The position numbers were made by a program, and so were the translations under genes. Under the pieces are notes generated by a model, which was not told the DNA's origin, ran no database searches, and saw only the letters and a program-made list of their open reading frames with translations. From Faecalibacterium sp. I4-3-84 (GTDB taxonomy: Bacteria; Bacillota; Clostridia; Oscillospirales; Ruminococcaceae), in NCBI RefSeq assembly GCF_023347255.1, contig NZ_CP094466.1, positions 1,240,001 to 1,304,000 on the forward strand: a DNA stretch of 64,000 nucleotides, in the 5' to 3' direction. Shown piece by piece: positions 21,077 through 37,750 of the stretch; position 1 is the first letter of the stretch; each line of letters starts with the position of its first letter.

Positions 21077-21472
21077 TTACTTCATGGGCAGCTCACCCTT
21101 GGACTCCTGTGCCCAGTGCTCCACCACCATCTTGGGCGCGTACACAAAAATCGTGCGCATCTCGGTGTCACCGGTGTTCTTCAGTTCATGGCGCTGCATG
21201 GGGGGCAGATAGATCACATCATCCGACTTGATAGGCACCGGCTCTCCGTCAATGATCATCTCACCGGTGCCGGACAGGATGATGTAGGTTTCCTCGGTCT
21301 CATGGGCATGTTCCGGCACACCGCCGCCGGGATGGACATTTGCGGTACCCACCACATAGTGCTCTGCCTGCAGGGGGCTGTCCACACCCACCAGAACGCG
21401 GGTACGGCGGCCTGCCGGGAACTCGGTGCCTTCGATATCCTGATAAATGCTGATCTTATGGATCTCTGCCAT
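21077..21472 (-). CDS. Cupin-domain protein
   Basis: A 131-aa single-domain cupin. The metal-binding motif is visible as HPGGGVPEHAHETEETYIILSGTGE (two histidines and a glutamate) and the second motif as PPMQRHELKNTGD with a further histidine. Small cupins of this type act as isomerases, dioxygenases or decarboxylases on small metabolites; the reaction here is unknown. ATG 21472 follows GGGAGG. It is the last gene of the 17-gene catabolic operon. Confidence 0.85.
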   Translation of the reverse strand: MAEIHKISIYQDIEGTEFPAGRRTRVLVGVDSPLQAEHYVVGTANVHPGGGVPEHAHETEETYIILSGTGEMIIDGEPVPIKSDDVIYLPPMQRHELKNTGDTEMRTIFVYAPKMVVEHWAQESKGELPMK

Positions 21473-21488
21473 GGTGTTTTTCCTCCCT

Positions 21489-21959
21489 TTATACTGCAAG
21501 GCTCTGCTGGAACACTGCAGACAGAAACGGGCGCTCCCCCTTCTGTGCGGTGCCAGCTTCGAGCTTTTCCAGAATTTCTTTGCGTGCCGCGGTCGCTTCG
21601 ATGGTGACCAGCTGCTTTTCGGGGTCCACTGCTGTCACCGTGCCTTTGACATAAACGGTATCGTTCAGCAGCACTGCACTGCTGAAGTGCACCTTCTGGT
21701 ACGCCGTACAGGACGTATCCCCGCACAGTCTGTTCAGGACCGGCCCAACCAGACCCACCGTAAGCATCCCATGGGCAATGCGGCTGTGGTAGCTCATCGT
21801 TGCGCCAAATGCTGCACTGACGTGCTGAGGTGCATAGTCGCCGCTCAGCATCGCAAACATCATCACGTCTGCCTCGGTCACGGTCTTTGCCGCATAGGCG
21901 GTATCCCCGACCCGAATTTCCTGTATGCACTTTGCAGTGACCGACTTATCCTGCGTCAA
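21489..21959 (-). CDS. MaoC-like (R)-enoyl-CoA hydratase, catalytic paralogue
   Basis: A hot-dog fold protein of about 156 aa. The hydratase dyad is intact: D41 and H46 in SGDYAPQHV, with the following SRIAHGMLTVGL matching MaoC/PhaJ proteins. It would hydrate a trans-2-enoyl-CoA or dehydrate the 3-hydroxyacyl-CoA. The likely start is TTG at 21959, overlapping the stop of the upstream paralogue (TTGA) and placed after an AGGAGG run. It is one of three adjacent MaoC-like genes, and the only one that keeps the dyad. Confidence 0.85.
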   Translation of the reverse strand: MTQDKSVTAKCIQEIRVGDTAYAAKTVTEADVMMFAMLSGDYAPQHVSAAFGATMSYHSRIAHGMLTVGLVGPVLNRLCGDTSCTAYQKVHFSSAVLLNDTVYVKGTVTAVDPEKQLVTIEATAARKEILEKLEAGTAQKGERPFLSAVFQQSLAV

Positions 21960-22393
21960 CGCTCCTCGCCTCCTCTGCACATCCGGACATCCTCCACCGA
22001 CTCGCCCTGCATCACAAGCTCACCGGCGGCGTTGTAGGCGGTCAGCTCCACGCGGACCTGCCCTTTTTCTTCGTCGATCTCCCTGACCTCGGCGCGGGTC
22101 GTAAGGGTGTCGCCCACCTGCATCGGCTTTCTTACCGAAAAACGGCGTTCCACCGGGCAGGAGGAGGGACGGAGCAGACGGTTTACTGCGCCGCCCATCA
22201 TGCTGGCGATCAGCATAGACGGGACCAGACGCATTTTGTAGCTGCTGTGCTGTCCGTAGGTCTCGTTCAGGTACAGCGGGTTCATGTCGCCGCTCACTCC
22301 GGCAAACAATGTCACGTCCGAGGCGCTCACCGTTTTGGGAAACAGCGCAAAATCGCCCACATGCAGTATTTTAGGGGGATAGCTCATTTCCAT
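21956..22393 (-). CDS. MaoC-like hot-dog protein lacking the catalytic histidine
   Basis: A 145-aa paralogue of its neighbours. The equivalent motif reads SGDMNPLYLN: D36 is kept but the histidine is replaced by Y41. The hydratase helix ends in MRLVPSMLIA rather than RIAHGML. It is probably a structural or substrate-positioning partner of the catalytic paralogue, as in the heteromeric (R)-hydratases HadAB/HadBC of mycobacteria (family knowledge; the pairing here is inferred). Confidence 0.82.
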   Translation of the reverse strand: MEMSYPPKILHVGDFALFPKTVSASDVTLFAGVSGDMNPLYLNETYGQHSSYKMRLVPSMLIASMMGGAVNRLLRPSSCPVERRFSVRKPMQVGDTLTTRAEVREIDEEKGQVRVELTAYNAAGELVMQGESVEDVRMCRGGEER

Positions 22394-22409
22394 CGTGTTC
22401 CGCCTCCTT

Positions 22410-22847
22410 TCAGTGCACCTGCATCAGTTCCCGCACATAGCCGTCTGCAACTATTTCATCGTTCTGGTTGTACACAGTCGTGCGGACATAGACATATTTC
22501 TTTTCGAGCACCTTTCTGGTCACTTCCCCCACCACGGTGATGGTGTCGCCCACATAGACAGGCTTATAAAAGGTCAGCTCCTGATCAATGGTCACGGCAC
22601 CGGGGCTGGCGATCTCGGTGGACACCGGCCAGGTATAGCTTGCCAGCAGTTCACTCTGCACGGCACAGCGCCCTGCAGATGTCGCTGCGGCAAACTCGGC
22701 ATTGGTGCTCAGCGGCTGGCTGTCGCCGGTGATGCCGGCAAACAGCGTGACATCCGCCTCGGAAATGGTCTTGGAATAATACGCCTTCTGTCCCATGGGG
22801 ATGGACTGGACGTTTTTTTCCTTTTCGTTCAATTCCAATGTTGACAA
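22410..22847 (-). CDS. MaoC-like hot-dog protein lacking the catalytic histidine (second)
   Basis: A protein of about 145 aa. The motif reads TGDSQPLSTN, with D42 kept and S47 in place of histidine, and the hydratase helix is changed (GRCAVQSELLAS). The C-terminal part VTIDQELTFYKPVYVGDTITVVGEV matches MaoC/FAS1 dehydratases. The start is uncertain: GTG 22856 touches the GGGAGG ribosome site, so TTG 22847, 8 bases away, is preferred. It lies between the PanE-like gene and the other two MaoC genes. Confidence 0.8.
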   Translation of the reverse strand: MSTLELNEKEKNVQSIPMGQKAYYSKTISEADVTLFAGITGDSQPLSTNAEFAAATSAGRCAVQSELLASYTWPVSTEIASPGAVTIDQELTFYKPVYVGDTITVVGEVTRKVLEKKYVYVRTTVYNQNDEIVADGYVRELMQVH

Positions 22848-22862
22848 AATCAGCACCTCCCA

Positions 22863-23882
22863 TCACTCCGGCAGCAGTGCCGCAAACTCCACCGCATGTT
22901 CCGGTGAAAATGTTTTTTCTCCCGCTGCGATCTCGCGGACCAGCCGGACAGCTGTATCATTGAAAGGGGTCGGCACCCCGCGTTCCAGTCCTGTGCGGCA
23001 GACAAAGCCGTTCAGCGCTCCGATCTCGCAGGGGCGTTTTTTCTGCAGGTCCAGCAGCATACTGGGAACGGCAGGCGCATTCCGTGCAAACAGCTCCGGC
23101 ATCTTCGCAAGCACCTGCTGTTCTTCCCGCAGGGTAGAAAATGCAAGCTCGGCGGGGTAATCGTACCCTTGCACCGGTTCAAACTTCACCCCGGCGGCAT
23201 GTCCCACCGCGATACACTCCCGCAGCAGATACAGCGCGATCCGACGCCAGCGCGCATCTTCCAACACAGCACCGCATTTTCCGCCCAGAATGCTTGCCGG
23301 GCAGCTGAGTGCCGCATTGATGAGCAGCTTGCTCCAGCGCAGACCCAGCAGATCTTCCACCGGCTCTGCCGGGCAGAACCGTTCCAGCAGTGCCTTTACC
23401 GGGTCCAGCCTCCGGGGATCTGTGCCGGGCAGCGATCCGATCTTGAAATGCAGCGAGCTTTCCGGCGGCGAGAGCCGTGCCTGCCCTGCCCCGATGCGTA
23501 CCGCGTTCCATGTGACCACACCGCCCGCCACCCGGTCTGCACCAAGCGCTGCTGCCAGTTCCGGTTCCGGGATGCCGTTCTGCAAGGCGCACACGATCCC
23601 ATCCGGAGCCAGATGCTCTGCCAGCCGGGGCAGCGCCGCCGTGTTTGCCATCTGCTTTGTCAGCAGAAGGATCACGTCATAGCGTCCGGACATCTGCTGC
23701 GGTGTGCACGCCTTTACCGGAACTGTCCACTCCCGCAGACCCGTGATGCGTGCCCCGCTGCGGTTCAGTGCATCCACATGCTCCTGATCGCGGGACACAA
23801 GCTCTACATCGGCCCCGCTGCGGGTCAGCGCCGCGCCAAGCACTGTTCCCAGCGCCCCGGCACCGTACACCGCCGCCCGCAT
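22863..23882 (-). CDS. Ketopantoate reductase (PanE/ApbA) family oxidoreductase
   Basis: A 339-aa NADP-dependent reductase. The Rossmann motif is AVYGAGALGTVLGAAL at the N-terminus. LLTKQMAN and CALQNGI follow in the nucleotide domain, and WSKLLINAALSCPASILGG opens the C-terminal helical domain with the conserved lysine. True PanE reduces ketopantoate for CoA synthesis, but many paralogues in catabolic operons reduce other 2-oxo acids. The context (MaoC hydratases, SDR, TRAP) suggests the latter. Start ATG is followed directly by the Rossmann motif; it begins 6 bases after the SDR stop. Confidence 0.87.
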   Translation of the reverse strand: MRAAVYGAGALGTVLGAALTRSGADVELVSRDQEHVDALNRSGARITGLREWTVPVKACTPQQMSGRYDVILLLTKQMANTAALPRLAEHLAPDGIVCALQNGIPEPELAAALGADRVAGGVVTWNAVRIGAGQARLSPPESSLHFKIGSLPGTDPRRLDPVKALLERFCPAEPVEDLLGLRWSKLLINAALSCPASILGGKCGAVLEDARWRRIALYLLRECIAVGHAAGVKFEPVQGYDYPAELAFSTLREEQQVLAKMPELFARNAPAVPSMLLDLQKKRPCEIGALNGFVCRTGLERGVPTPFNDTAVRLVREIAAGEKTFSPEHAVEFAALLPE

Positions 23883-23888
23883 CGCCTA

Positions 23889-24683
23889 TTACAGGCGGCG
23901 GATATGGAATCCGCCGTCCACATCAATGTAGTTGCCGGTGGTGTAAACAAAATCGTCATCGCATACCAGACGCGCGACCTTGCCCAGATCCTCCGGGGTG
24001 CCCCAGCGTGCAATGGGGAACTGCCCCTCGGCGATGAGGCGGGTGTACTTTTCGTGCACCACCTTGGTCATGTCCGTGTCAATGACGCCGGGGCGCAGCT
24101 CGTGCACCATGATGCCCTCCGCCGCCAGACGGTCGGCATAGCAGGTGGTCAGCATCATCAGGCCGGACTTTGCCACACAGTACTCCACACGGTTCGTAGA
24201 AGATACGGTGGCAGATGCCGAGCCAATGTTGATGATGGTTCCCCGTTTCGGCTCTTTTTCCGGGTCCCACGGCTGCTTGAGCATCTGATTTGCCACCAGC
24301 TGGGTCATAAACATGGTGCCCTTGAGCACGGTGCCCACCACAAAATCAAAGCTTTCTTCGGTGGTCTCCAGCATGTCCAGCCGGATCTTGGGGGCCACGC
24401 CTGCATTGTTGACCAGCACGTCGATCTCGCCAAAACGCTCGACCACAGCCTTCACAAAGCTCTCGCGATCTGCGGCAGTACGGGTGTCGCCCTTCTGGTA
24501 CAGATATTCCGCCCCGGCAGCTTCCAGCTTTGCCATGTTCTCTTTGTAATCCGGACGGCTGGGATCTTCCAGATCATTCACGTCCAGAATCGCGATGTTA
24601 TAGCCATGCTTTGCAAGCTCCAGTGCAATGCCAAACCCAATGCCGCGGCTTCCGCCGGTCACGATTGCAGTCTTTCTCATCAT
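23889..24683 (-). CDS. Short-chain dehydrogenase/reductase (SDR), paralogue 1
   Basis: A 264-aa classical SDR. The cofactor loop is TGGSRGIGFGIAL and the NNAG motif is VLVNNAGVAPKIR. The catalytic triad region shows INIGSASATVSSTNRVEYCVAKSG (serine, Tyr-x-x-x-Lys), then PGVIDTDMT and the C-terminal GNYIDVDGGFHIRRL. It is clearly related to the SDR at 27807-28580 in the same operon. The substrate is unknown; a sugar-acid or 3-hydroxyacyl derivative is plausible. It directly follows the LacI gene (13-base gap). Confidence 0.9.
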   Translation of the reverse strand: MMRKTAIVTGGSRGIGFGIALELAKHGYNIAILDVNDLEDPSRPDYKENMAKLEAAGAEYLYQKGDTRTAADRESFVKAVVERFGEIDVLVNNAGVAPKIRLDMLETTEESFDFVVGTVLKGTMFMTQLVANQMLKQPWDPEKEPKRGTIINIGSASATVSSTNRVEYCVAKSGLMMLTTCYADRLAAEGIMVHELRPGVIDTDMTKVVHEKYTRLIAEGQFPIARWGTPEDLGKVARLVCDDDFVYTTGNYIDVDGGFHIRRL

Positions 24684-24696
24684 TCAATCCTCCTGT

Positions 24697-25734
24697 TCAG
24701 CCCGGGACTACCGGGGCTGGTTCATTGTCTTGTTTTGTCAGATCCCGGACCGAATTGCGTTCCACCAGTCTGCCCGGCACCACAATGTGGTTGCCGCGGG
24801 TAGCGGTGTCGCCGTCGATCTGCCGCATGAGGATGTCCACCGACACGGTGGCGATCTGCTCGATCGGGTGGTGCCATGTGGTCAGTGCCGGCAGCATGTA
24901 CTGTGCACGGTCAATGTCATCGTAGCCCACCACCGAGACGTCCTGCGGGATCGAAAGTCCAAGGCTTGCCGCCGCGCTGTACACACTGTCCGCCAGCCAG
25001 TCACTGAACACAAAAAATGCAGTGGGGCGGTTCGGCGCGGCAAGCAGCCTGCAGGCTTCCTCATATGCTGTGCCGGTATTTTCCGCGCACAGATACGTTA
25101 CTTCTTCGTCCGAGATACCATATTTTCGGAATGCATCCTGACAGCCTAGGTAGCGTTCTTTGAAGTGCTGCTGGTTCACATCACGGATGAGACATGCCAC
25201 GCGGCGGTGCCCGTTTTGCAGCAGGCATTCCACCGCAGCACATGCACCGCGGCGATTGTCGTTGGTGACGCAGGCAGCGTCCACATCCATCTCGCGATTG
25301 ATCAGGATCACCGGCACATCGGTGCTCCGGATCAGGTTACTGATCCGCTCCTGATTCTCATCACAGGCGATCCACACAATGCCCTCTGCCCCGAAGGAGC
25401 TGGCGCGCTCAAAGCAGCGGTTCTCCTGCTCTTCGGTGTTGTCCGAGATGCCCAGCAGGATGCTGTAATCGTGCTTGCGCAGATTTTCTTCAAAGCATGT
25501 AACCATCTTGGGGAAGAAGGCATTTGTCAAATCCGGCACGATCAGCAGCACCGTGCGGCTTTTGCCGCCCTTGAGGCTGCGCGCCATCTGATTGGGCACA
25601 TAGTGCATTTCCTCCGCCGCTCGCAAGACCTTTTTCTTGGTCTTGGCATCCACCAGCGGGCTGTCCGCAAGTGCCCGTGACACAGTACTGTAGGATACGC
25701 CTGCGTACTTTGCAACGTCTTTGATGGTTACCAT
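24697..25734 (-). CDS. LacI family transcriptional regulator
   Basis: A 345-aa regulator. The N-terminal helix-turn-helix IKDVAKYAGVSYSTVSRAL and hinge helix PNQMARSLKGG are typical. The periplasmic-binding-protein-like domain follows (VLLIVPDLTNAFFP, GIVWIACDENQ, SVVGYDDIDRAQYMLPALTT). It is encoded inside the operon it probably controls. The TGCAAACGTTTGCA-type palindromes upstream of the first gene (37.6-37.9 kb) are the likely operators, by the usual LacI-family operator form. The effector would be a substrate or intermediate of the pathway. Confidence 0.93.
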   Translation of the reverse strand: MVTIKDVAKYAGVSYSTVSRALADSPLVDAKTKKKVLRAAEEMHYVPNQMARSLKGGKSRTVLLIVPDLTNAFFPKMVTCFEENLRKHDYSILLGISDNTEEQENRCFERASSFGAEGIVWIACDENQERISNLIRSTDVPVILINREMDVDAACVTNDNRRGACAAVECLLQNGHRRVACLIRDVNQQHFKERYLGCQDAFRKYGISDEEVTYLCAENTGTAYEEACRLLAAPNRPTAFFVFSDWLADSVYSAAASLGLSIPQDVSVVGYDDIDRAQYMLPALTTWHHPIEQIATVSVDILMRQIDGDTATRGNHIVVPGRLVERNSVRDLTKQDNEPAPVVPG

Positions 25735-25762
25735 ACTACCACTCTGCCTTTACTTTAAATAT

Positions 25763-27730
25763 TTACTGGAATGCCGCGCCTTTGCGGTATTCCTGCCAGA
25801 CTTTTTCAAACCATTCGGTCGTTTCCGGGATCGGCCTGCAGCCGCGCCAGTAGAAGGTGCACGCGCCCTGCGCATACTCCACCTCCTGTATGGTCTGCAG
25901 CATCGTTCCATCCTCCAGCACGAAGCGGAAAATCTCCGGCAGCGATCCCAGCGGTTTTTCGCCCGCCGGGTCGCAGATCAGGTAAGAGCCGCGGCTCCTG
26001 CCGCCCTGCTGGATGTAATTGCGGATCGCAGACAGATATACGAACTGACTTACCGCCAGATCCCGTAACCGATAAAGTTGTCCCAGAAGCAAGGGAGTGG
26101 ACAGGGATGCTTCTTTCTCGATGCGATGCAGCTGCTGCAGTGCTTCCTCACACGCTGTCTGTACTGCCTCACGCCCACGGATCACCGCACCGCAGCAGGA
26201 CATGCGCTCCTGCAGTGCTGCACGCTCTGCAGCCATATCAAAGCTGCCTCCGCGCTGCAGCGCCTGCATGCCAAACTCCATTGCAGCCCAGATCTGTTCC
26301 CCGGCTGCCGCAAGCACCTGCTGCTCGTCCGGCGGGGCAAGAGCCGCATCGTGGTGTGCAATGTAGCTTGCCGCTCGGATGCCGCCCACCTGACCCGCGT
26401 TCAGTGCCGTGCCGCCCGGGCGGTACACGCCATGGGTGCCGTTCACCTCACCTATCGGATACAGGTGGCGGATGTTGCTCTGCCACCAGCAGTCTCCTGC
26501 CAGTCCGCCGTTGTTGTGCTGGGCACAGATGGCGATCTCCAGCGGCTCGGCGGCAAGGTCGATGTTGTGGCTGCGGTACAGCTCGATGGCGGCGGGGTTC
26601 ATTGCCGCAAGGCGCTGGATGGGCAGTTCCTGCATGGAACCGGACTCCCGCAGATATTCCAGTGCTTCTTCGCTGAGCTTTGTGTAATCCATTTTGCCAT
26701 CGGTCAGGGCACAGCGCGGGTTGCGCCGATAATCCAGAAAGACGCGCCGCTTTTTCTGCACCGTTTCAATGTAGATCAGGATGTCGATCAGCGAAGAGCC
26801 ATAACTGCGGGTCTTGCGCGGGTCAAAGGGCCACTGATAGCCCTTGAGGAAAATCGCGTTGAGCTGGGACTGCGCATCCGGAAAAGCATCTTCCAGAAAC
26901 TCCCGCTCATCGCCGCCGTTCTCATCGGTGGAGATGTAGCAGGGCAGCACCTGCTGGTAGCTGCCGGAGAGGTTCCAGCGGAACTTGATGGATGCGATGC
27001 CATACTGCGACTCGGTAAGGTTTTTGCCCCGTGCACCCGCACGCAGCGCCAGACCCGTGCCTCCGGTCTGCGCCGTGGGGTACACCGAGGTTTTGTACAT
27101 TCCGGCTTCGCCGCCGGTGGCGTAGATCACATTTGCGGCACCGAACACCGCATAGGTCGGTTCCTGCTTTTTGTATTCCAGCGCCAGCACACCAATTGCC
27201 TTTTTCTGTTCCCCGTCCGGTGCCGTGAGGATCTCCAGAGCCTGATAGCCTTCCAGGATCCGGACACCCAGCTCCTTTGCTTCCTCGATCAGCCGTTCGG
27301 TCATGTATCTGGAAGTCAGCGGACCTGCCGAAATGCCGCGTTTGAACGGATCGTGGTCCGTTTTGTAGCCCACATACTCCCCATACCGGTTACAGGGAAA
27401 CGGCACTCCGATATCGACCAGATGGAAAAACGCTCTCGTCGAGACCGCCGCCTCCGCCAGTGCGATATCCCCATCCACGCAGCCGCCATCAAACAGCGTC
27501 TGTGCCATCTGACGCACGCTGTCCGGCGTGGTTCCGGAACTGGTAAGCTTATAGTAGGTCTGCTTGTCCGAGCCAGTATTGCGCGAGGTCCCAAAGGTCA
27601 GTCCCTCGGTAAGCACTGTTACGTCCTGTATGCCCTGTTTTTTCAGGGCGATCGCGGCATTTAAGCCTGCCGCTCCACTCCCTACAATTATAACATCGCT
27701 GCGCCGGAATGTAAATTTCTTCGTTTCCAT
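25763..27730 (-). CDS. FAD-dependent oxidoreductase, fumarate reductase/L-aspartate oxidase-like flavoprotein
   Basis: A 655-aa flavoprotein. The N-terminal dinucleotide motif is VIIVGSGAAGLNAAIAL, then SRNTGSDKQTYYKL as the flavin-contacting loop. The active-site-like AICAQHNNGGLAGD aligns with the H-x-x-GG block of fumarate reductase/SdhA/NadB proteins. LYPIGEVNGTHGVYRPGGTALNAGQVGG closes the FAD domain, and a helical C-terminal domain follows. No heme or flavin-transfer domain is seen. It may reduce an enoate or oxidise an alpha-hydroxy/amino acid. ATG 27730 follows AGAAAGGA. Confidence 0.85.
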   Translation of the reverse strand: METKKFTFRRSDVIIVGSGAAGLNAAIALKKQGIQDVTVLTEGLTFGTSRNTGSDKQTYYKLTSSGTTPDSVRQMAQTLFDGGCVDGDIALAEAAVSTRAFFHLVDIGVPFPCNRYGEYVGYKTDHDPFKRGISAGPLTSRYMTERLIEEAKELGVRILEGYQALEILTAPDGEQKKAIGVLALEYKKQEPTYAVFGAANVIYATGGEAGMYKTSVYPTAQTGGTGLALRAGARGKNLTESQYGIASIKFRWNLSGSYQQVLPCYISTDENGGDEREFLEDAFPDAQSQLNAIFLKGYQWPFDPRKTRSYGSSLIDILIYIETVQKKRRVFLDYRRNPRCALTDGKMDYTKLSEEALEYLRESGSMQELPIQRLAAMNPAAIELYRSHNIDLAAEPLEIAICAQHNNGGLAGDCWWQSNIRHLYPIGEVNGTHGVYRPGGTALNAGQVGGIRAASYIAHHDAALAPPDEQQVLAAAGEQIWAAMEFGMQALQRGGSFDMAAERAALQERMSCCGAVIRGREAVQTACEEALQQLHRIEKEASLSTPLLLGQLYRLRDLAVSQFVYLSAIRNYIQQGGRSRGSYLICDPAGEKPLGSLPEIFRFVLEDGTMLQTIQEVEYAQGACTFYWRGCRPIPETTEWFEKVWQEYRKGAAFQ

Positions 27731-27806: not shown

Positions 27807-28580
27807 TCACAGGACACGAATGTGGAAACCGCCGTCCACATCCAGATAGTTGCCCGTGGTATACGCCAGTTGATCGCTGCACAGCAGGGAGACCGCGTTT
27901 GCCACGTCCTCTGCCGTGCCCCACCGCGCAATGGGAAACGCCCCCTGCGCAATGAGCCTGTCGTACTTTTCCTGCACGGTGGTGGTCATGTCTGTGGCAA
28001 TGACGCCGGGCCGCACCTCATGCACCAGAATGCCCTCCGGGGCGAGGCGCGCAGCATACAGTTTAGTCAGCATGGACACCCCCGCCTTGGACACGCAGTA
28101 TTCGCCGCGGTTCAAAGACACCACATCTGCCGAGCAGGACGAAACGTTGACGATGGTGCCGCGCTTGACCCTGCCTTCCATCGAAAGCCCGATCATGTGT
28201 TTTGCAATGAGCTGGGTAAAGAACATGCTGCCCTTTGTGTTGACGCCCAGCACGCGGTCGTAGCTTTCCTCGGTCATCTCCAGCAGGTCGGTGCGGGTCT
28301 TGGGTGCCACGCCTGCGTTGTTGACCAGAATGCGGATCTCGCCCAGCGTCTGGACCGCTTCCCGGGCAATGCGTGCACGGTCTGCGCTGCTGCCCAGATC
28401 TCCGCTGAACCAGTAGAACTCTGCGCCGTCCGCTTTCAGCGCGGCCACCGCATCGGGGTAGCGTTCCTGCGGGCCTGTACTGATGATCCCCACCCGGTAT
28501 CCGTCTTTTGCCAGCTGCCGTGCTGCCGCAAGACCGATGCCGCGGCTTGCTCCGGTGATCAGTGCTACATCTTTTTTCAT
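27807..28580 (-). CDS. Short-chain dehydrogenase/reductase (SDR), paralogue 2
   Basis: A 257-aa classical SDR with TGASRGIGLAAARQL, ILVNNAGVAPKTRTD, and the active site VNVSSCSADVVSLNRGEYCVSKAG, ending GNYLDVDGGFHIRVL. It shares long stretches with the SDR at 23889-24683, so the two arose by duplication and may act on successive or stereoisomeric intermediates. The start ATG 28580 lies 4 bases beyond the stop of the epimerase, behind GGTGGAG; the frame extends further upstream but only within the epimerase gene. Confidence 0.9.
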   Translation of the reverse strand: MKKDVALITGASRGIGLAAARQLAKDGYRVGIISTGPQERYPDAVAALKADGAEFYWFSGDLGSSADRARIAREAVQTLGEIRILVNNAGVAPKTRTDLLEMTEESYDRVLGVNTKGSMFFTQLIAKHMIGLSMEGRVKRGTIVNVSSCSADVVSLNRGEYCVSKAGVSMLTKLYAARLAPEGILVHEVRPGVIATDMTTTVQEKYDRLIAQGAFPIARWGTAEDVANAVSLLCSDQLAYTTGNYLDVDGGFHIRVL

Positions 28581-28584
28581 CGGA

Positions 28585-29271
28585 TCACTCCACCAGACCT
28601 TTCCGCATTTCCTGCTCAAAGCGCTGACATGCTGCCGGGATGCCGTCCGGTTGACGGTACACCGTGTAGACACCGGTGACAAACAGGTTTGCACCGCGCC
28701 GGACGCAGGGCTGAACATTGGGATAATTGATGCCTCCGTCAATGGAGATCAGAAACTCTTTGCCTGTTTCCTCCCGGAGCTTTGACAGCTCTTCCAGCCG
28801 CGGCAGCGACTCCACCATGAACTTCTGCCCGGCAAAGCCCGGTTCCACAGTCATCAGCACCACCAGATCCACCCAGTCCAGATACGGGTGGATCACGTCC
28901 ACCTGCTGCGAGGGGTTGAGCACGATGCCCGCCTTCATGCCAACTTCGCGGATAGCACGCAGGCTGCGGATCACAAAATGGGTGCTGTCGGCGTGAAAGC
29001 TGACATAGTCTGCGCCTGCGGCGCGCAGGGGTTCGATGTAGGCAGCAGGGTCTGTGACCATCATATGCACATCAGCGATCGCCTGCGGGTATTTTGCTTT
29101 CAGGTCTGCAACCAGCCGCACCGGATAACAGAGGTTTGGCACATAGTGCCCATCCATGATATCAATATGGAACCAGCGCACCCCGCTGTTCCAGAACTGG
29201 CGGATATCCTCTTCCAGCTCCAGCAGGCTGCTGTTTGCAAGCGAGGGACAGTTGATCAACGCCTGTTTCAT
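28585..29271 (-). CDS. Ribulose-phosphate 3-epimerase family protein
   Basis: A TIM-barrel epimerase of 228 aa. The metal and catalytic motifs are visible: WFHIDIMDGHYVPNL (histidine and aspartate), ADVHMMVTDP, YVSFHADS and VLMTVEPGFAGQKF. SIDGGINYPNV with the second catalytic aspartate and TGVYTVYR follow. It interconverts pentulose (or hexulose) phosphates at C3. In a sugar-acid operon it may act on a dedicated ketose phosphate, as D-allulose-6-phosphate epimerases do. GTG and ATG starts overlap the upstream stop; ATG 29271 has the best spacing from CTGGAG. Confidence 0.87.
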   Translation of the reverse strand: MKQALINCPSLANSSLLELEEDIRQFWNSGVRWFHIDIMDGHYVPNLCYPVRLVADLKAKYPQAIADVHMMVTDPAAYIEPLRAAGADYVSFHADSTHFVIRSLRAIREVGMKAGIVLNPSQQVDVIHPYLDWVDLVVLMTVEPGFAGQKFMVESLPRLEELSKLREETGKEFLISIDGGINYPNVQPCVRRGANLFVTGVYTVYRQPDGIPAACQRFEQEMRKGLVE

Positions 29272-29276
29272 GGTCA

Positions 29277-30032
29277 TCACTCCAGTTTATCGCCAAAGAT
29301 CTTCTGCGTGCGCAGGTCCATAAATTTGCGGTCCTCTGCTGTGGTGGACACCATCACATACGCGTAGGTGATGCCGCCGCAGGGGCAGCCCACATTGGGA
29401 TGGTAGCCGTGGGGAATGGTGATCACGTCACCATTCCGCACCAGTGCTGCCACGATGGGCTGGTCCATATCATCGTACACGAACTGTGCGGCAAAGCCAT
29501 TGCCCATGCCAAAGTAGACGTACGTCTCCTCGCGCTCCCTGCCGTGCTCGTGGGGCGGCCATGCGGTCCAGCCGCCGTCCGCGCCATGGCAGATGCCGGT
29601 GAGGAAGCGGGAGGAATCGAAGGATTCGTCAATGTAGTTCCACACATCGCGGCGGGTGCCGTTTTCCACCTTTCCATACACCTTGTGGCGGCTGTCCTTG
29701 TCCACATCCGCAAAGCGAATGTGACCGAACTTCGTCCTGCGGGTACAGGGTGCGCCGTAACGCATCATCACCCCGCCCTCGGAGGAAGTGAAGGTGATGC
29801 CGGACTCGATGGGCAGATACAGCATATCCATCTGGACCGCCGTGCCGCTCTGTCCCTCTGTCTGATAATCCACCCTGCCTCCGATGCAGATGAAGCACAG
29901 TTCTTCCGCTCCGCTTTCCAGCGCAACAGGCTCCGCTCCCACTTCCACACGCTGTACCGAGGTGTACACCATGCCAAGGTCTGCCGGTTCTTTTTTCGTC
30001 AGGATCTCATGCGGTTTGAAATACTGTTTCAT
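29277..30032 (-). CDS. KduI/IolB-like isomerase (5-deoxy-glucuronate / 4-deoxy-uronate isomerase family)
   Basis: A 251-aa double cupin. The metal-binding signature WPPHEHGREREETYVYF and the later ITIPHGYHPNVGCPCG correspond to the histidine/glutamate ligands of IolB and KduI. These enzymes isomerise 5-deoxy-glucuronate (inositol pathway) or 5-keto-4-deoxyuronate (pectin pathway); which, if either, applies is not decidable. The absence of other iol or kdu genes nearby argues for a different, related sugar acid. It overlaps the epimerase gene region at its stop. Confidence 0.85.
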   Translation of the reverse strand: MKQYFKPHEILTKKEPADLGMVYTSVQRVEVGAEPVALESGAEELCFICIGGRVDYQTEGQSGTAVQMDMLYLPIESGITFTSSEGGVMMRYGAPCTRRTKFGHIRFADVDKDSRHKVYGKVENGTRRDVWNYIDESFDSSRFLTGICHGADGGWTAWPPHEHGREREETYVYFGMGNGFAAQFVYDDMDQPIVAALVRNGDVITIPHGYHPNVGCPCGGITYAYVMVSTTAEDRKFMDLRTQKIFGDKLE

Positions 30033-31118: not shown

Positions 31119-31119
31119 C

Positions 31120-32409
31120 TCACATCATCAGGTTGGGCAGCGTCATGCTCAGCGCCGGGATAAAGGTGATCATCAGCAAAACGATGACCATTGTCAGGTA
31201 GAAGGGCAGCATGCACTTGGTGACCTTTTCGATCTTGGCACCGCCCACAGCACAGCCGGCATACAGGCAGGAGCCAACGGGAGGCGTCAGCAGGCCGATG
31301 GCCAGGTTTGCAATGAGCATGATGCCGAACTGAACGGGATCCATGCCAAACTTCTGCACAACGGGCAGCAGGATCGGGGTCATAATCAGGATCAGCGGAG
31401 CCATGTCCATGATGCAGCCGAGCAAAAGCAGCAGAACATTGATCAGCAGCAGAACAACGATCTTGTTGTCACTGACATCCATCAGAATCCCGGTAAACTT
31501 TGCGGGGATGCGCAGGTAGGCCATCATCCATGCAAAGGCACCTGCCGCAGCGATCAGACTGTAGATCATGGCAAGGGTCTTGACCGTGTTGTACAGGATC
31601 CGGCCCATATCCTTGAGGCTCAGCTGACGGTAGACCAGCGTTGCCACCAGCAGGCAGTAGATGCAGCCGATGGCTGCGGCCTCGGTAGCGGTGAACAGAC
31701 CGGCAACAACGCCGCCCACAATGATGAACATTGCGCCGATGGCAAAAACAGCGTCCTTGGTGATGACCAGAGCTTCCTTGAACGATACGGGATCACCCTT
31801 GGGGTAGTTCCGTTTGATCGCAAAAATGTAGCAGAGCGCCATCAGTGCAACGCCCAGCAGGATGCCGGGCGCATAGCCCGCCAGAAACAGCTTGCCGACC
31901 GACACGCCGCCTGCGGTCATTGCATACAGCACCATGTTATGACTGGGAGGGATCAGAAGTCCCTGACATGCACTGGAAACGGTAACGCAGATGGAAAAGT
32001 CCTTATCGTATCCGGCATCCTCCATCATGGGGATCTCGATCTTGCCCAGAGAGGAAACGTCTGCAACCGCAGAACCGGAAATGCCGCCAAAGAACATGGA
32101 AGCAAGCACGTTCACAAAGGCCAGACCGCCGCGGAAACGTCCCACCAGAACATTGGCAAACTTCAGCAGTCGGTCTGATATTCCGCCTGCACCCATGATC
32201 TCGCCCATCAGGATAAAGAACGGGATCGCCAGCAGCGAGAACGAGTTGACGGATTTTGCCATCTGCTGCACCATGGTCATCATCGGGATATTCAGGTACA
32301 GCATGGTCGTTGCGGTAGCGATCACCATGGCAAACGTTACCGGCAGGTGGCATATGATCATCACGGCAAATAAGCCGATCAGCAAGAAAACAGCAACAGA
32401 TTCCTGCAT
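31120..32409 (-). CDS. dctM: TRAP transporter large permease (DctM)
   Basis: A 429-aa membrane protein of about twelve segments that forms the sodium-driven channel of a TRAP transporter. Signatures include FILMGEIMGAGGISDRLL, FFGGISGSAVADVSSLG and the C-terminal TPPVGSCLYAGCAVGG. ACAGGAGGGTGAATT precedes the ATG. It works with the DctQ and DctP genes of the operon. TRAP systems usually import dicarboxylates, sugar acids or other organic acids, which fits the neighbouring enzymes. Confidence 0.94.
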   Translation of the reverse strand: MQESVAVFLLIGLFAVMIICHLPVTFAMVIATATTMLYLNIPMMTMVQQMAKSVNSFSLLAIPFFILMGEIMGAGGISDRLLKFANVLVGRFRGGLAFVNVLASMFFGGISGSAVADVSSLGKIEIPMMEDAGYDKDFSICVTVSSACQGLLIPPSHNMVLYAMTAGGVSVGKLFLAGYAPGILLGVALMALCYIFAIKRNYPKGDPVSFKEALVITKDAVFAIGAMFIIVGGVVAGLFTATEAAAIGCIYCLLVATLVYRQLSLKDMGRILYNTVKTLAMIYSLIAAAGAFAWMMAYLRIPAKFTGILMDVSDNKIVVLLLINVLLLLLGCIMDMAPLILIMTPILLPVVQKFGMDPVQFGIMLIANLAIGLLTPPVGSCLYAGCAVGGAKIEKVTKCMLPFYLTMVIVLLMITFIPALSMTLPNLMM

Positions 32410-32440
32410 AATTCACCCTCCTGTTATTTTTGTCAGTCGA

Positions 32441-32995
32441 TCAGTTCGCTGCGCTCTGACCGCCATCGTCCAATGACGCTTCCAGCAGCTGATCGCCGTA
32501 TTGATTCGTATTTTTATACTTTTTCCAGCCCAGCAGATCCAGCACTGCAAAAAATGCCATGAATCCGCCGCCCACGGGGATCATCAGATACAGCATGCCT
32601 GCCGGCCACTTCGTAGCGGCAAGGGTGCTGCTCCATGTGCTCATTACGAGCTTTGTGCCAAAGAAGCACAGGAAGCAGCCGACCACAGCCAGGATCATCT
32701 TGTTGAGCACATCAAAAAACTTCCTGACGGGCTTCGGGAACAGATTATAGAATAGTTCAATGGCGATGTGCTGATCTTTTTCTTCACCGATCGCCATGCT
32801 CAGGAAGGTCATCCAGACGATGAGGAGCAGGGAGACCTCCTGTGCCCACTTGATGCTGTAGCTCAACACGTTGCGGCAGAACACGTCCGTCGAAACGATC
32901 ACCACGATCACCAGCAGGACCGCCTGCGAGTAGCGCAGAAAAATGTTATATACCATGTTGAACAGCCCAATGAGGATCTGTCGAATCTTTTTCAT
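32441..32995 (-). CDS. dctQ: TRAP transporter small permease (DctQ)
   Basis: A 184-aa membrane protein with four hydrophobic segments (LLVIVVIVSTDVFCRNVL, SLLLIVWMTFLSMAIG, MILAVVGCFLCFFG, YLMIPVGGGFMAFFA), the DctQ pattern. Its tail is charged and acidic. The start overlaps the aroE-like stop by four bases (ATGA), so the transporter subunits and the dehydrogenase are translationally linked. Confidence 0.9.
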   Translation of the reverse strand: MKKIRQILIGLFNMVYNIFLRYSQAVLLVIVVIVSTDVFCRNVLSYSIKWAQEVSLLLIVWMTFLSMAIGEEKDQHIAIELFYNLFPKPVRKFFDVLNKMILAVVGCFLCFFGTKLVMSTWSSTLAATKWPAGMLYLMIPVGGGFMAFFAVLDLLGWKKYKNTNQYGDQLLEASLDDGGQSAAN

Positions 32996-33864: not shown

Positions 33865-33888
33865 AAGTTCTTTCCCTCGAAAAAAACA

Positions 33889-33938: not shown

Positions 33939-33993
33939 CTTTGATCGTTTGGCAGCCCTGCTCTGTACCCAGAACCGCCAAATCAGACGCTTT

Positions 33994-35064
33994 TTAGCCC
34001 ATTGCCACAGCCTGATTGATGAGGTCCAGATACTTGCCGTCGTTGTAGCTCTCCCACAGCGGCGAGCATGCATCCACGAACTGCTGGAATTCATCGGTGG
34101 TCAGGTCTGTGATCACATTGCCAGCTTTTTCCAGCTCAGCACGGACATTTGCCTCGACCTCTGCCCACAGGTCACGCTGGTACACCCAGCTCTCCATTGC
34201 AGCATCCGCAATGATCTTGACATCATCCTCGCTCAGTTTCTGACGAAGTTTCTCGCTCATAACCAGCATATCGGGTGCACGGGTATGACCGTCCAGCGTG
34301 AAGTACTTTGCCACCTCGCAGTGCGAAACTTCCTTGTACTGGACCATGGAGTTTTCGGCACCGTCAATGACGCCGGTCTGCAGGCCGGAATAGACATCGC
34401 CATACGGCATTGCGGTCGCAACTGCGCCCAGCGCCTCGATCATGCTGATCATCAGGTTCGACTCCTGCACGCGAATGTTCATGCCCTTCATATCTGCCGG
34501 GGTGTGGATCTCGTGCTTGGAGTTGTAGAAATTGCGGGTGCCGCCATCGTACCAGGTCAGACCGTAAAAACCGGCTTCCTTCATCTTATCGCTGCGCAGG
34601 ATGTCCATGCCCAGCGTCTCAGCGACCTTCCAGAAATGCTCGTCGTTCTTGTAGATGTAAGGCATGCTCAGCGCATTCAGATCATCCACGAACTCGCACA
34701 TGGGGCTGATGTTGATGCGCGCAAACTCCAGACCGCCATACTGGCACTGCTCGATGGCAGACTTCTCATCGCCCAGAACGGCATCGTAATAAATGTCGAT
34801 CTCGATGCGCCCATTGGTGCGCTCCAGAACCAGATCGGACCAATACCGTAGCGCCTGCGAAACGTTGAAGTTCTCCGCATGGTTTGTGGAGCAGCGATAT
34901 TTTACGGTCTCGCCCGATGCTGCCGTGCTGGAAGTTCCGGCAGTGCTGGATGCCGCAGTGCTGGTAGAGTTCCCGGAGCCGCCGCATGCAGCAAGACCTG
35001 CTGCTGCAGCCATGGCAGCGGTGCACTTCATAAAATTGCGTCGGGAGATCATCTTCTTCGCCAT
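33994..35064 (-). CDS. dctP: TRAP transporter substrate-binding protein (DctP), Tat-type lipoprotein
   Basis: A 356-aa solute-binding protein. The N-terminus has a twin-arginine motif (ISRRNFMK), a hydrophobic stretch and a lipobox (LAAC, cysteine about residue 27), so it is probably exported folded and anchored outside the membrane. The mature part shows the DctP features LRYWSDLVLERTNGRIEIDI and MKGMNIRVQESNLM (the arginine binds the substrate carboxylate). MPYGDVYSGLQTGVIDGAENS follows. It captures an organic acid for DctQM. A terminator-like hairpin follows. Confidence 0.93.
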   Translation of the reverse strand: MAKKMISRRNFMKCTAAMAAAAGLAACGGSGNSTSTAASSTAGTSSTAASGETVKYRCSTNHAENFNVSQALRYWSDLVLERTNGRIEIDIYYDAVLGDEKSAIEQCQYGGLEFARINISPMCEFVDDLNALSMPYIYKNDEHFWKVAETLGMDILRSDKMKEAGFYGLTWYDGGTRNFYNSKHEIHTPADMKGMNIRVQESNLMISMIEALGAVATAMPYGDVYSGLQTGVIDGAENSMVQYKEVSHCEVAKYFTLDGHTRAPDMLVMSEKLRQKLSEDDVKIIADAAMESWVYQRDLWAEVEANVRAELEKAGNVITDLTTDEFQQFVDACSPLWESYNDGKYLDLINQAVAMG

Positions 35065-35151
35065 AATAAAACCCTCCTGTTTTTGGCAATCGGCGCAAGC
35101 CTTTTTTATTTTCAGGCTGTTCCTTCTAATACAGCCCTGTTCCGTTGTGGT

Positions 35152-35931
35152 TCAGCGGCCCTTGAAATCCGGGGTGCGCTTTTCGAGGAAAGCGGAAATG
35201 CCCTCGCGGGAGTCCGCCGTGGTGAAGCAGTAAGACAGAGCAAGCGAGTCCGTCAGGTCGTTATAGGTAAAGACCGAGCGGTTGATCATCTCCTTGTCCA
35301 TCGCCATGGTAATGGGTGCCTTTGCGGCAAGCTCCTGTGCAAGCGAATCGGCACCTGCACGCAGAGCGGCGACATCTTCAAACACTTCGGTGACCAGACC
35401 ATACTGCAGCGCGGTGTCGGGTTTGATGCGCTTTGCACGAAGGATCATGTCCTTTGCGCGGCCTTCGCCGATGATGCGCGGCAGACGGATCGTACCGCCC
35501 CAGCCGGGAATGATGCCCAGCGCGATCTCCGGCAGGGCAAACCGTGCATTTGCGCTGCAGATGCGGAAGTCGCAGCACATGGCCAGCTCCAGACCGCCGC
35601 CCAGACAATAGCCGTTGATGGCTGCAATGGTGGGGATCTTCAGCCCCTCCACGCGGTTATACACCTTGTAGCCGCAGGTGATCAGATAATGGGCATCGGC
35701 CGGCTGATAGCCCGGCGTTCCCATCTGTCCGATATCTGCACCGGCGATAAAGGATTTCTCGCCCGCACCGGTAATGATCAGGCAGCGAATGGAGGGATCT
35801 GCCTCCACCTCGTCCAGCAGCTTGTCGATCTGCTCCACGATGCCGGTGTTCAGTGCGTTCATCTGCTTGGGGCGGTTGATCGTCATGATCGCATAGCCCG
35901 TTTTCTTTTCCAGATAGATTTCTTCACTCAT
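35152..35931 (-). CDS. Enoyl-CoA hydratase/isomerase (crotonase) family
   Basis: A 259-aa crotonase. The oxyanion-hole motifs SFIAGADIGQM and INGYCLGGGLELAM are present. The two catalytic glutamates are E115 (GGGLELAM) and E135 (FALPEIALGIIPGWGG), so hydratase activity is expected. It hydrates trans-2-enoyl-CoA to (S)-3-hydroxyacyl-CoA, whereas the MaoC proteins of the same operon are (R)-type. It is the second gene, 69 bases after the CoA-transferase. No acyl-CoA dehydrogenase or thiolase accompanies it here. Confidence 0.92.
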   Translation of the reverse strand: MSEEIYLEKKTGYAIMTINRPKQMNALNTGIVEQIDKLLDEVEADPSIRCLIITGAGEKSFIAGADIGQMGTPGYQPADAHYLITCGYKVYNRVEGLKIPTIAAINGYCLGGGLELAMCCDFRICSANARFALPEIALGIIPGWGGTIRLPRIIGEGRAKDMILRAKRIKPDTALQYGLVTEVFEDVAALRAGADSLAQELAAKAPITMAMDKEMINRSVFTYNDLTDSLALSYCFTTADSREGISAFLEKRTPDFKGR

Positions 35932-36000
35932 AGGTACACACTCCTTCTGAATTTTATCGTTCGACAGCGTCTTATGCCATCGGGTTCCTGCTTCAATGCG

Positions 36001-37545
36001 TCATTCCTTGCAGTGCATCCGTTCCGGGCGGAAGATGCATTCATCCATAATCTTCAGGTCCTCTGCCACTTTTGGACGGAAGTACATCTGTGCCAGAACG
36101 TCCTTTTCCAGATCCACGCCCGGCGCGATCTCGGTCAGCACCACACCGTCTTGGGTCAGCCTGAACACCGCGCGCTCTGTGACATACACGACGGTCTGCT
36201 GCTCTTCCGCTGCATACTGCGTACTGAAGGTGATCTGCTCGACCGCCGGGACGAATTTGTGGATGCGTCCTTCCTGCTGGATCACAAGCCTGCCATCCTC
36301 AATGGCGGTTTTCAGCCCGCCTGTGGTAAACGTGCCGCAGAACACCACCTTCTTTGCGGACTGGGAAATATCAATGAATCCGCCGCTGCCGGAGATCGTC
36401 GTCCCGAACTTGCTCACATTGACATTGCCCTGTGCATCCGCCTGTGCCAGACCCAGAAATGTGGTATCCAGACCATGACCGGAATAAAAATCGAACTGCG
36501 TGCTTTCGTCCAAAAATGCATCCGGATTGCTTGCCACGCCGAAGATCGCGCCCTGTGCGGGGATGCCGCCGTAGATGCCCTGCTCAATGGTCATCGTGAC
36601 CTTGTCTGCAAAGCCCTCCTCCGCAGCGACTGCTGCAACACCATCCGGCATACCGAACCCCAGATTGATGATGGCACCCTGCTCCAGCTCCATAAATGCC
36701 CGGCGGGCCACGACCTTGCGTGCGTTGAGCGGGAATGCTTTCAGCTGACTGATCGGGATGGTGACATCCCCGCTGAAAGCAGGATTGTACTCGCCCTCCC
36801 CGGTCTGCATCTGAGCGGGGTCCACCACAATGGCGTCAATGTATGCCCCGGGGATCCAGACCCGCTTTGCGCTCAGGCTGCCTTTTGCCACGATGCCTTT
36901 GACCTGACAAATGACTTTGCCGCCGCTGTTGTGCGCTGCCTGCGCAGCTTCCAGCATATCCAGCCGTGCGGGCTCCTGATCAAAGCTGATGTTGCCGCTC
37001 TCGTCTGCGTAGGTGCCGCGGATGACCGCGATGTTGACGGGGAAGGTCTTGTACATCAGATAATCGACGTCATGGATCTTGATGTGTTCCACCAGATCTT
37101 CCTTGGTCACTTCGTTCAGCTTTCCGCCCTGCAGCAGCGGATCCACAAAGGTATACTTGCCAACCTTTGTGATCAGCACCGGGCGCTGTGCTGCGATCTC
37201 GCGATACAGGTGGCAGATGACGCCCTGCGAGAAATTGTAAGCCTCGATTTCATTGTTGACCGCCATTGCCTGCATCTCCGGCGACCAGCCCCAGTGACCG
37301 CCTATGACACGCCTGACCATGCCCTTGTGGGCAAAGCGGGTAACGCCGGCTCTGTTCTTATCGCCAATGCCGGAGGCATGCACCAGGGTCAGGTTTGCGG
37401 GATGGCCTGTATTCAGAAAGCGTTCCTCGATTCCCTCAAGGGTGTGGTACGCCTCCATCACACCGCCGCCGCTGCCCGTGATCACTACGGTATCCCCATC
37501 CTGAATTAGAGCTGCCGCCTGTTCGCGTGTCATGATCTGCGCCAT
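36001..37545 (-). CDS. Acyl-CoA:acetate CoA-transferase (YdiF/propionate CoA-transferase type)
   Basis: A 514-aa family I CoA-transferase with both halves fused. The N-terminal half starts with TREQAAALIQDGDTVVITGSGGG and contains the HASGIGD and GGHWGWSPEM blocks. The C-terminal half has IINLGFGMPDGVAAVAAEEG and the catalytic glutamate in MTIEQGIYGGIP. It would activate the imported acid (or an intermediate) with acetyl-CoA or propionyl-CoA. ATG 37545 follows AAAAGGAGG. It is the first gene of the operon. Confidence 0.92.
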   Translation of the reverse strand: MAQIMTREQAAALIQDGDTVVITGSGGGVMEAYHTLEGIEERFLNTGHPANLTLVHASGIGDKNRAGVTRFAHKGMVRRVIGGHWGWSPEMQAMAVNNEIEAYNFSQGVICHLYREIAAQRPVLITKVGKYTFVDPLLQGGKLNEVTKEDLVEHIKIHDVDYLMYKTFPVNIAVIRGTYADESGNISFDQEPARLDMLEAAQAAHNSGGKVICQVKGIVAKGSLSAKRVWIPGAYIDAIVVDPAQMQTGEGEYNPAFSGDVTIPISQLKAFPLNARKVVARRAFMELEQGAIINLGFGMPDGVAAVAAEEGFADKVTMTIEQGIYGGIPAQGAIFGVASNPDAFLDESTQFDFYSGHGLDTTFLGLAQADAQGNVNVSKFGTTISGSGGFIDISQSAKKVVFCGTFTTGGLKTAIEDGRLVIQQEGRIHKFVPAVEQITFSTQYAAEEQQTVVYVTERAVFRLTQDGVVLTEIAPGVDLEKDVLAQMYFRPKVAEDLKIMDECIFRPERMHCKE

Positions 37546-37623
37546 TTGTTTTGCCTCCTTTTGTGCGGGTGAGAAGCGTGGTTTTTTCCGCACCACCTTC
37601 CCCCACCGTCTCTTTTCTCTTAT

Positions 37624-37639
37624 ATGCAAACGTTTGCAT
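37624..37639. promoter_or_regulatory. LacI-type operator palindrome in the leader of the catabolic operon
   Basis: ATGCAAACGTTTGCAT is a perfect 16-bp palindrome with the central CG typical of LacI-family operators. It lies about 80 bases downstream of the promoter and 80 before the CoA-transferase start, where bound repressor would block elongation or loop to the upstream sites. Confidence 0.78.
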
Positions 37640-37721
37640 TCATCCGATAAAATTATCATCGACTCTCCCTCTCCTAAGATCACATTTCTTACGAGTCAGT
37701 CTTTCGATGAATTACGTTTGC

Positions 37722-37750
37722 ATTATAGCCCATGCCCAACTATTTGTCAA
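37722..37750 (-). promoter_or_regulatory. Promoter of the 17-gene catabolic operon
   Basis: On the minus strand TTGACA, a 17-bp spacer and TATAAT form a consensus promoter. A half-site TGCAAACG directly follows the -10 and could be covered by the same LacI-type repressor. Confidence 0.85.

Follow-up and report, generated by a model that had tools for sequence, protein, structure and literature searches.

What would a bacterium take up and ferment with an operon that joins enzyme families of sugar-acid metabolism to those of acyl-CoA metabolism? The question is raised by a locus of Faecalibacterium sp. I4-3-84 (assembly GCF_023347255.1), in which the minus strand between positions 37750 and 21077 of the analyzed stretch (NZ_CP094466.1, 1,240,001-1,304,000; 64,000 nt, hereafter the window, whose positions are used throughout) carries a single compact set of 18 genes, with a CoA-transferase gene first and a cupin gene last. 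We suggest, as a reading that we regard as evenly poised, that this operon enables the uptake and fermentation of a carboxylated sugar, the best candidate being a uronate- or deoxyuronate-like acid. A carboxylated sugar appears the likeliest substrate because TRAP, LacI, KduI-, epimerase- and RpiB-type proteins recur in each other's company, because one related locus (G1023) carries a sugar importer, and because sugar-acid genes lie near some of the cassettes that pair a short-chain dehydrogenase/reductase (SDR) with a flavin adenine dinucleotide (FAD) protein. The CoA-transferase, the crotonase and the MaoC set suggest, therefore, that the acid or its product may be processed as a thioester.

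Operon organization and regulation

Protein families were called with Pfam and NCBIfam models and scored against curated cut-offs. The genes, in operon order, are as follows.

36001-37545, minus strand: family I CoA-transferase, YdiF-like; Glu region kept in the alignment to YdiF (2ahu, 486 bits)
35152-35931, minus strand: crotonase/enoyl-CoA hydratase; both Glu positions kept in the alignment with the E. coli counterpart
33994-35064, minus strand: DctP, TRAP solute-binding protein; family match, 47% identity to the DctP of locus L019
32992-33864, minus strand: AroE-like dehydrogenase; family match and alignments
32441-32995, minus strand: DctQ, TRAP small permease (Pfam)
31120-32409, minus strand: DctM, TRAP large permease (Pfam), 62% identity to the DctM of L019
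30045-31118, minus strand: M24/creatinase-fold protein; four of five metal-ligand positions changed
29277-30032, minus strand: KduI/IolB-superfamily isomerase of a divergent subfamily; metal motif H161, H163, E168, H211 kept
28585-29280, minus strand: ribulose-phosphate-3-epimerase-family protein (family match), directly after the KduI-like gene
27807-28580, minus strand: SDR1, PRK12745 family (317.9 bits against a cut-off of 250), ATG at 28580
25763-27730, minus strand: FAD oxidoreductase, a subfamily within the SdhA/FrdA/NadB superfamily (family and structure matches)
24697-25734, minus strand: LacI-family regulator (family match), presumed local repressor
23889-24683, minus strand: SDR2, PRK12745 family (293.2 bits against a cut-off of 250)
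22863-23882, minus strand: PanE/ApbA-like reductase (family match)
22410-22856, minus strand: MaoC1; Ser replaces the catalytic His
21956-22393, minus strand: MaoC2; Tyr replaces the catalytic His
21489-21980, minus strand: MaoC3; Asp-His pair kept
21077-21472, minus strand: small cupin (Pfam)

The preliminary description of this DNA had recognized an operon here, which stands, and had counted 17 genes in it, which the Pfam and NCBIfam matches correct to 18; all the families it named are present between 37545 and 21077. Its remark on tight spacing with several overlaps also holds, since the 17 junctions, once the starts are refined, span -25 to +129 bases and three of them overlap (AroE-like/DctQ, -4; KduI-like/epimerase-like, -4; MaoC2/MaoC3, -25). 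Opposite these genes, whose family matches are strong, the plus strand also contains long open reading frames (up to 876 codons), which the family search did not treat as genes.

The following control elements were located around and within the operon.

37722-37750, minus strand: main promoter TTGACA-17-TATAAT, 12 of 12 consensus bases
37625-37638: LacI-type operator TGCAAACGTTTGCA, downstream of the promoter, exact pattern match
37882-37895: LacI-type operator TGCAAATGTTTGCA, upstream of the promoter, exact pattern match
37909-37922: third, degenerate operator-like site with two mismatches, a level at which chance gives 5.2 sites per window
27687-27715, minus strand: TTTACA-17-TATAAT, an internal promoter-like sequence within the beginning of the FAD gene, supported by its consensus match alone (11 of 12)
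20978-21010: terminator-like stem-loop and T-run after the last gene; the stem comes from a plus-strand scan, the minus-strand T-run was read by eye

Two exact copies of the palindrome TGCAAANNTTTGCA (37625-37638 and 37882-37895) thus accompany a perfect sigma-70-type promoter and a LacI gene within the operon, in keeping with the LacI-type operators proposed earlier. The palindrome occurs exactly nowhere else in the genome (3,119,411 bases); a shuffled window had a mean of 0.02 exact matches, and two were never reached in 100 shuffles. With two mismatches allowed the pattern is not special (8 sites found, 5.2 expected), and hence we rely on the exact sites only. In the simplest reading, the LacI protein is probably a local, self-regulated repressor of the operon. 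Since the promoter scan of the window returned 17 promoter-like sites against 8.5 expected from shuffles, the weaker promoter-like matches mean little; possibly, the internal site in the FAD gene, a weak consensus match, starts a second transcript for the genes that follow it, LacI among them. At the other end, the stem-loop, followed by GGGCTTTTTG, begins 67 bases beyond the cupin stop codon.

The KduI-like and epimerase-like pair

The preliminary description had proposed a check for conserved synteny, and three blocks indeed recur in other genomes: the KduI-epimerase pair (6 of 6 relatives), the SDR-FAD pair (38 of 40 loci) and the set of functions found in a cluster of E. coli. The KduI-like protein matches the Pfam KduI superfamily with 95 bits (cut-off 23.9) and misses the equivalog models of both KduI (39 against 250 bits) and IolB (74.7 against 205 bits). 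Residues H161, H163, E168 and H211, which we take to be metal ligands, are invariant in three KduI-like sequences, and the motif also aligns to KduI. The product of the next gene matches the Pfam ribulose-phosphate-3-epimerase family (188.6 bits) and a subfamily model (197.8 against a cut-off of 165), and stays below the cut-off of the equivalog TIGR01163 (199.3 against 212.6 bits). Its D40 and D181, the catalytic Asp pair, are invariant in three sequences; the Ser after the last Gly loop is replaced by Val, Ile and Val in these, and in L019 that Gly is Thr. The roles of this Ser and of the other active-site residues are presumed from the family.

A scan of named species genomes for the KduI-like protein yielded two relatives, L018 (titled Accumulibacter, 64% identity) and L019 (uncultured Clostridia bacterium, 57%). 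Further ones came from narrower samples: 2 of 249 genomes in the family of G723, the genome of L018 (G829 and G723 itself); 2 of 100 in the family of G724 (G1023 and G724 itself); and 4 of 28 in the genus of G829, a count that adds G1073 and G1084 to G723 and G829. In the order of G829, 1 of 300 genomes had a match, namely G829 itself. The KduI-like gene is directly followed, on the same strand, by the epimerase-like gene in all six relatives. The contig of G1084 is only 3.6 kb long. Four of the six have DctP nearby together with a cupin of one family; three of these four also carry LysR, and in two of the three DctP and LysR lie on the opposite strand. At the L019 locus lie genes for LacI, an RpiB-family isomerase and a cupin, along with the three TRAP genes (45-62% identity to those of the window), whereas the G1023 locus has LacI and an RbsB-A-C-C-type sugar ATP-binding cassette (ABC) importer, together with a HIT-domain gene, in place of TRAP; this gene (L031, 1748-2182) lies between the importer and the KduI-epimerase pair.

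L018 also encodes, at 4855-7620, a 921-aa protein that joins a crotonyl-CoA-reductase-like region to a crotonase region; we set it aside, because a shared operon with the pair was not established. Viral contigs scanned with the KduI alignment gave no relatives. A tblastn search of plasmids with the KduI-like protein returned 153 records, all below 60% identity; the 20 listed ones range from 24.8 to 30.6%, and the named genes among them are annotated as iolB. The predicted structure of the protein, based on a three-sequence input, had a mean predicted local distance difference test score of 52.5, too poor for a fold search.

A cluster of related composition in E. coli

The FAD protein led to another block: among nine plasmid records that it found by tblastn, four are from E. 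coli, and between ytfB and rplI E. coli carries genes for a TetR regulator, an SDR, an AP_endonuc_2 isomerase, a crotonase, a CoA-transferase, an FAD protein and TRAP components. The unit from the SDR to the TRAP genes matches the window by function class, so that the mixture of sugar-acid and acyl-CoA families noted in the preliminary description recurs in a second organism. The gene table of CP054241 stops at the FAD gene, which means either that the table is incomplete or that the TRAP genes are unlisted. In clone D i14 and in BLK16, a derivative of BL21(DE3), the FAD gene is followed, instead of by TRAP, by the gene of a major facilitator superfamily (MFS) protein; this protein scores best against the model of a D-galactonate transporter subfamily, with 315 bits, without reaching the cut-off of 395. 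The versions with TRAP or with MFS transporter are exemplified by L043 (7044-16827) and L046 (5141-13420). In a megablast search with the 8,924-base TRAP version, 1440 of 5426 complete genomes covered it to at least 80%; matches of any length were found in 3247 of the 5426, some of them very short (one listed match spans 128 bases).

Identities to the window proteins are 48% for the CoA-transferase, 45% for DctM, 37/35% for the SDR, 36% for the FAD protein, 35% for DctP, 33% for the crotonase and 23% for DctQ. Since the CoA-transferase also matches YdiF strongly (486 bits), our claim is one of a common set of functions, including TRAP in one version, and not of descent of the whole operon. The two loci differ in the regulator (TetR in E. 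coli, LacI in the window) and in the isomerase, where E. coli has a TIM-barrel enzyme in place of the KduI-epimerase pair, the two isomerases being of unrelated families; moreover, the E. coli cluster is without the AroE-like, M24, PanE, MaoC and cupin genes of the window.

The SDR-flavoprotein cassette

A family profile built from nine FAD sequences matched 55 of 391 sampled genomes of the class (E<=1e-100). Excluding the window's own genome leaves 54, from which 40 loci were scored and 14 left out (mid-ranked G511 and G485, and the 12 lowest-ranked); L010, L011, L013, L014, L015, L041, L042 and L043 were scored separately and are reported apart from these 40 clostridial loci. In 38 of the 40, and also in L041 of Subdoligranulum variabile, the gene that immediately precedes the FAD gene on its strand encodes an SDR of the type seen in the window, where the two genes are arranged in this way too. 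The two loci without this SDR are L080 and L105, the latter a stretch that ends 1 base upstream of the FAD match. Across the 40 loci (706,427 bases) no second such SDR was found at E<=1e-20; at the looser E<=1e-10, another SDR appears at a distance in L087 and L100, and in L095 two TRAP genes close to where the stretch ends. LacI matches occur in 7 of the 40 loci, and a reductase like that of L041 in 36, of which the one scanned is an Oxidored_FMN protein. An Oxidored_FMN gene is not among the 18 genes of the operon, which, unlike the 40 loci (E<=1e-20), have a CoA-transferase and a crotonase.

Some cassettes have sugar-acid genes in their surroundings. A glucuronate isomerase (646 bits, cut-off 387) lies near the cassette of L083 and a 3-dehydro-L-gulonate dehydrogenase (459 bits, cut-off 316) near that of L095; genes like 2-keto-3-deoxygluconate (KDG) kinase, the one scanned being below the cut-offs, form a cluster from 4 of 41 loci, and heparinase II/III-like genes lie near a few. 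The cassette loci are L077-L116, in some of which such neighbors occur.

The solved structures nearest to the flavoprotein are SdhA, NadB and FrdA (E about 5e-27 to 5e-23), and the stretch corresponding to QYHPTG and RGEGG, which we take to be motifs of fumarate reductase, reads QYGIASIKFRWNLSGSYQQV in the window protein; therefore, succinate/fumarate chemistry looks unlikely. Another idea is that of an electron sink, in which the operon would serve the stepwise reduction and dehydroxylation of a dietary compound, by analogy to the equol genes, whose three enzymes work one after the other. PMC4381290 describes equol formation in gut bacteria by an NADH:flavin oxidoreductase, an SDR and a succinate-dehydrogenase-like protein, and the clostridial reductase-SDR-FAD cassette has these three family types. 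The window, however, combines its SDR and SdhA-like flavoprotein with no Oxidored_FMN gene among the 18; the likeness is one of family types, and the TRAP, KduI and epimerase families indicate a carbohydrate. We consider this explanation unlikely.

The AroE-like protein

The preliminary description had named quinate as an example of a substrate. Such a hydroaromatic acid (quinate or shikimate) would be fermented through CoA thioesters, ring hydration and ring opening, for which a CoA-transferase, a crotonase and MaoC proteins would be suited. The AroE-like protein has the Shikimate_dh_N and SDH_C domains above the Pfam cut-offs, its VTxP.K and NTD regions align, so that the Lys and Asp regions are kept, and over its full length its best PDB match is an AroE (164.4 bits, against 141.6 for 5-ketofructose reductase). 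Moreover, relatives of the KduI-like protein occur in L018, titled Accumulibacter, and in 4 of 28 genomes of its genus. Propionivibrio, a relative of the L018 group, ferments quinate.

Nevertheless, the AroE-like protein reaches none of 17 shikimate/quinate NCBIfam models (TIGR00507, a near miss, 185.6 against 200.2 bits; PRK00258, 222.5 against 252), and its pocket carries Ala for the first Ser of SLS, Ala for the Asn before VTxP and His for the Tyr of DIIY, three positions whose roles we presume from the family. The case for quinate or shikimate is weakened because the protein stays below all 17 cut-offs and differs at these three positions. When the query was deliberately trimmed at its N terminus to obtain an alignment to 5-ketofructose reductase, this enzyme became the top PDB match, by a negligible lead of 2 bits (140.9 against 138.7 for AroE). 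PMC7954740 describes 5-ketofructose reductase as related to shikimate dehydrogenases, and one putative shikimate dehydrogenase as inactive on 5-ketofructose. Judged from these scores and alignments, the AroE-like protein is no clear argument for shikimate. The 18 genes include no dehydratase family for dehydroquinate or dehydroshikimate, and the KduI-epimerase pair is found next to a sugar ABC importer as well. A hydroaromatic substrate is distinctly unlikely in our view. In the literature on quinate and shikimate, none of the listed titles or abstract beginnings describes a gut gene cluster for them.

CoA-dependent enzymes, M24-like protein and cupin

In the CoA-transferase, TIEQGIYGG of the window aligns with TVETGPIGG of YdiF, and the crotonase retains its two Glu regions. 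Among the MaoC proteins the Asp-His pair is intact in MaoC3, while the His is Ser in MaoC1 and Tyr in MaoC2, a set that recalls, by analogy, the heteromeric HadAB-type hydratases, whose subunits divide the labor. The M24 protein keeps one of five metal ligands, at positions that we presume from the family, in a weak alignment to the prolidase 5cdl (25 bits). Cleavage of dimethylsulfoniopropionate, suggested by a DMSP-lyase match of the cupin (31.8 against 27 bits) together with the metal-less M24 protein, was rejected in view of the altered ligand positions of the M24 protein and of the higher score that the cupin reaches as plain Cupin_2 (70.4 bits).

The earlier proposal was that the operon may break down a conjugate in which a polyhydroxy acid is joined to an acyl or aromatic acid; we considered esters and amides of this kind. 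In its favor, the operon contains two chemically distinct enzyme sets. Metal-free relatives of M24, such as creatinase, act on C-N bonds, which would fit the M24 protein into such a scheme. This proposal has nevertheless lost ground, since the 18 genes include no esterase, glycosidase or amidase family and the sole hydrolase-like protein, M24, has lost four of its five ligand positions; we hold it to be improbable.

Proposed route and its weak points

The steps that we propose for a uronate- or deoxyuronate-like acid are drawn from the protein families and the conserved neighborhoods. The TRAP system would import the sugar-acid anion, which the KduI-like metal isomerase and its epimerase-family partner may rearrange, their joint action being suggested by conserved adjacency only. 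SDR1 and the flavoprotein, with SDR2, the AroE-like and the PanE-like enzymes, could then oxidize, reduce or deoxygenate the acid, and the CoA-transferase would convert it to a CoA thioester. The crotonase and MaoC3 might add or remove water, with MaoC1 and MaoC2 perhaps as non-catalytic partners, and possibly the crotonase breaks a C-C bond; finally, the CoA-transferase would regain CoA from the product acid. The 18 genes include no kinase and no aldolase family, and therefore the usual uronate route via KDG phosphate is incomplete within the operon. With more doubt than conviction, we go one step further and suggest a kinase- and aldolase-free type of sugar-acid fermentation, built from isomerase/epimerase, SDR-flavoprotein redox, CoA transfer and dehydration or C-C cleavage, of which the window would be the most elaborate member in a modular group that includes the operon of many E. 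coli strains.

None of the described pathways considered is complete in the operon, as had been noted before. It shares with the Kdu pathway a KduI superfamily member with the metal motif as well as SDRs, but misses the KduI and KduD cut-offs, and neither KDG kinase nor 2-keto-3-deoxy-6-phosphogluconate aldolase is among the 18 genes (the rest of the genome was not searched). It shares with the iol pathway an IolB-superfamily protein, but this falls far short of the IolB cut-off, as given above, and no IolC-, IolD-, IolE- or IolJ-type gene accompanies it among the 18; the acyl-CoA dehydrogenase, thiolase and 3HCDH families of beta-oxidation are likewise missing from them. No match was found in the literature searched, either.

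Several observations weigh against a uronate-like acid processed in this way. The reaction of the KduI-like protein may be a different one, because it lies so far below the KduI and IolB cut-offs, and the epimerase family normally uses phosphosugars, yet no kinase family was found among the 18 genes. The E. coli counterparts are only 23-48% identical to the window proteins. At E<=1e-20, matches to the CoA-transferase, crotonase, KduI-like and epimerase-like proteins are missing from all 40 clostridial FAD loci, and therefore the CoA arm stands beside the flavoprotein in two examples only. Among the nearer relatives L010, L011, L013, L014 and L015, an SDR directly upstream of the FAD gene is found in none of the five (L015 has the SDR and the reductase on the other strand), and no SDR was seen in the Rhizobium locus L042. 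Finally, uronate-linked neighbors occur in a minority of cassette loci and are linked to the cassette by proximity only.

Distribution and flanking regions

The operon proteins are distributed patchily. At E<=1e-20, 7 of 100 relatives had a match to the flavoprotein, the window's own genome being one of the seven; the 29 further genomes sampled from the genus, not all of them complete, had none. Of 295 genomes from the order (E<=1e-20) and 391 from the class (E<=1e-12), two samples that overlap and are thinned, the window's own was the sole one with the KduI-like protein, and the same is true of the M24-like protein in 120 relatives. We infer either a recent gain of the operon or its wide loss in the genus. 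Composition gives no sign of transfer (GC 0.577 in the operon, 0.563 in the left flank, 0.614 in the right flank); transfer is favored by the patchy distribution alone.

The left flank varies too, since a PRD/phosphotransferase system (PTS) regulator (17548-19446) is patchy among eight genomes of the same genus, with a 98% match in G011, a 37% match in G025 and none (E<=1e-50) in the other six. A fragment of an IS116/IS110/IS902-family transposase (19983-20501) lies beside the 3' end of the operon. This IS110-family remnant and the patchy distribution would suit a patchwork of unrelated genes without a common pathway; against it stand the promoter, the genome-unique operator pattern, the minimal spacing and the three sub-blocks that recur elsewhere, and we regard a patchwork as highly improbable.

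On the other side, a GC-poor island (38468-51600; GC 0.415, flanks 0.56-0.61) encodes an AAA_21 ATPase adjoining an RloB-like protein, a Schlafen AlbA_2 protein and a RecG-C-like protein, and looks, from its gene content, like a defense or mobile island. At 38468-40459 lies the gene of a 663-aa protein for which Pfam gives no match at E<=0.001. A stretch of 382 bases (51619-52000) is 93% identical to the phage record MT835627, from human fecal samples.

Implications

Sugar acids are major carbon sources in the gut and in plants, and the familiar routes for their use proceed by phosphorylation and subsequent splitting by an aldolase. In the literature searched, which covered subscription journals thinly, we found no description of the gene combination of the operon or of the ytfB-rplI cluster of E. 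coli. The five-enzyme core is present in a derivative of BL21(DE3), and the idea is therefore testable in E. coli. Our findings connect three little-understood groups, namely the KduI-epimerase pair, the clostridial SDR-FAD cassette and the E. coli cluster, and, if the proposed reading is true, a CoA-based route for sugar acids would represent new chemistry.

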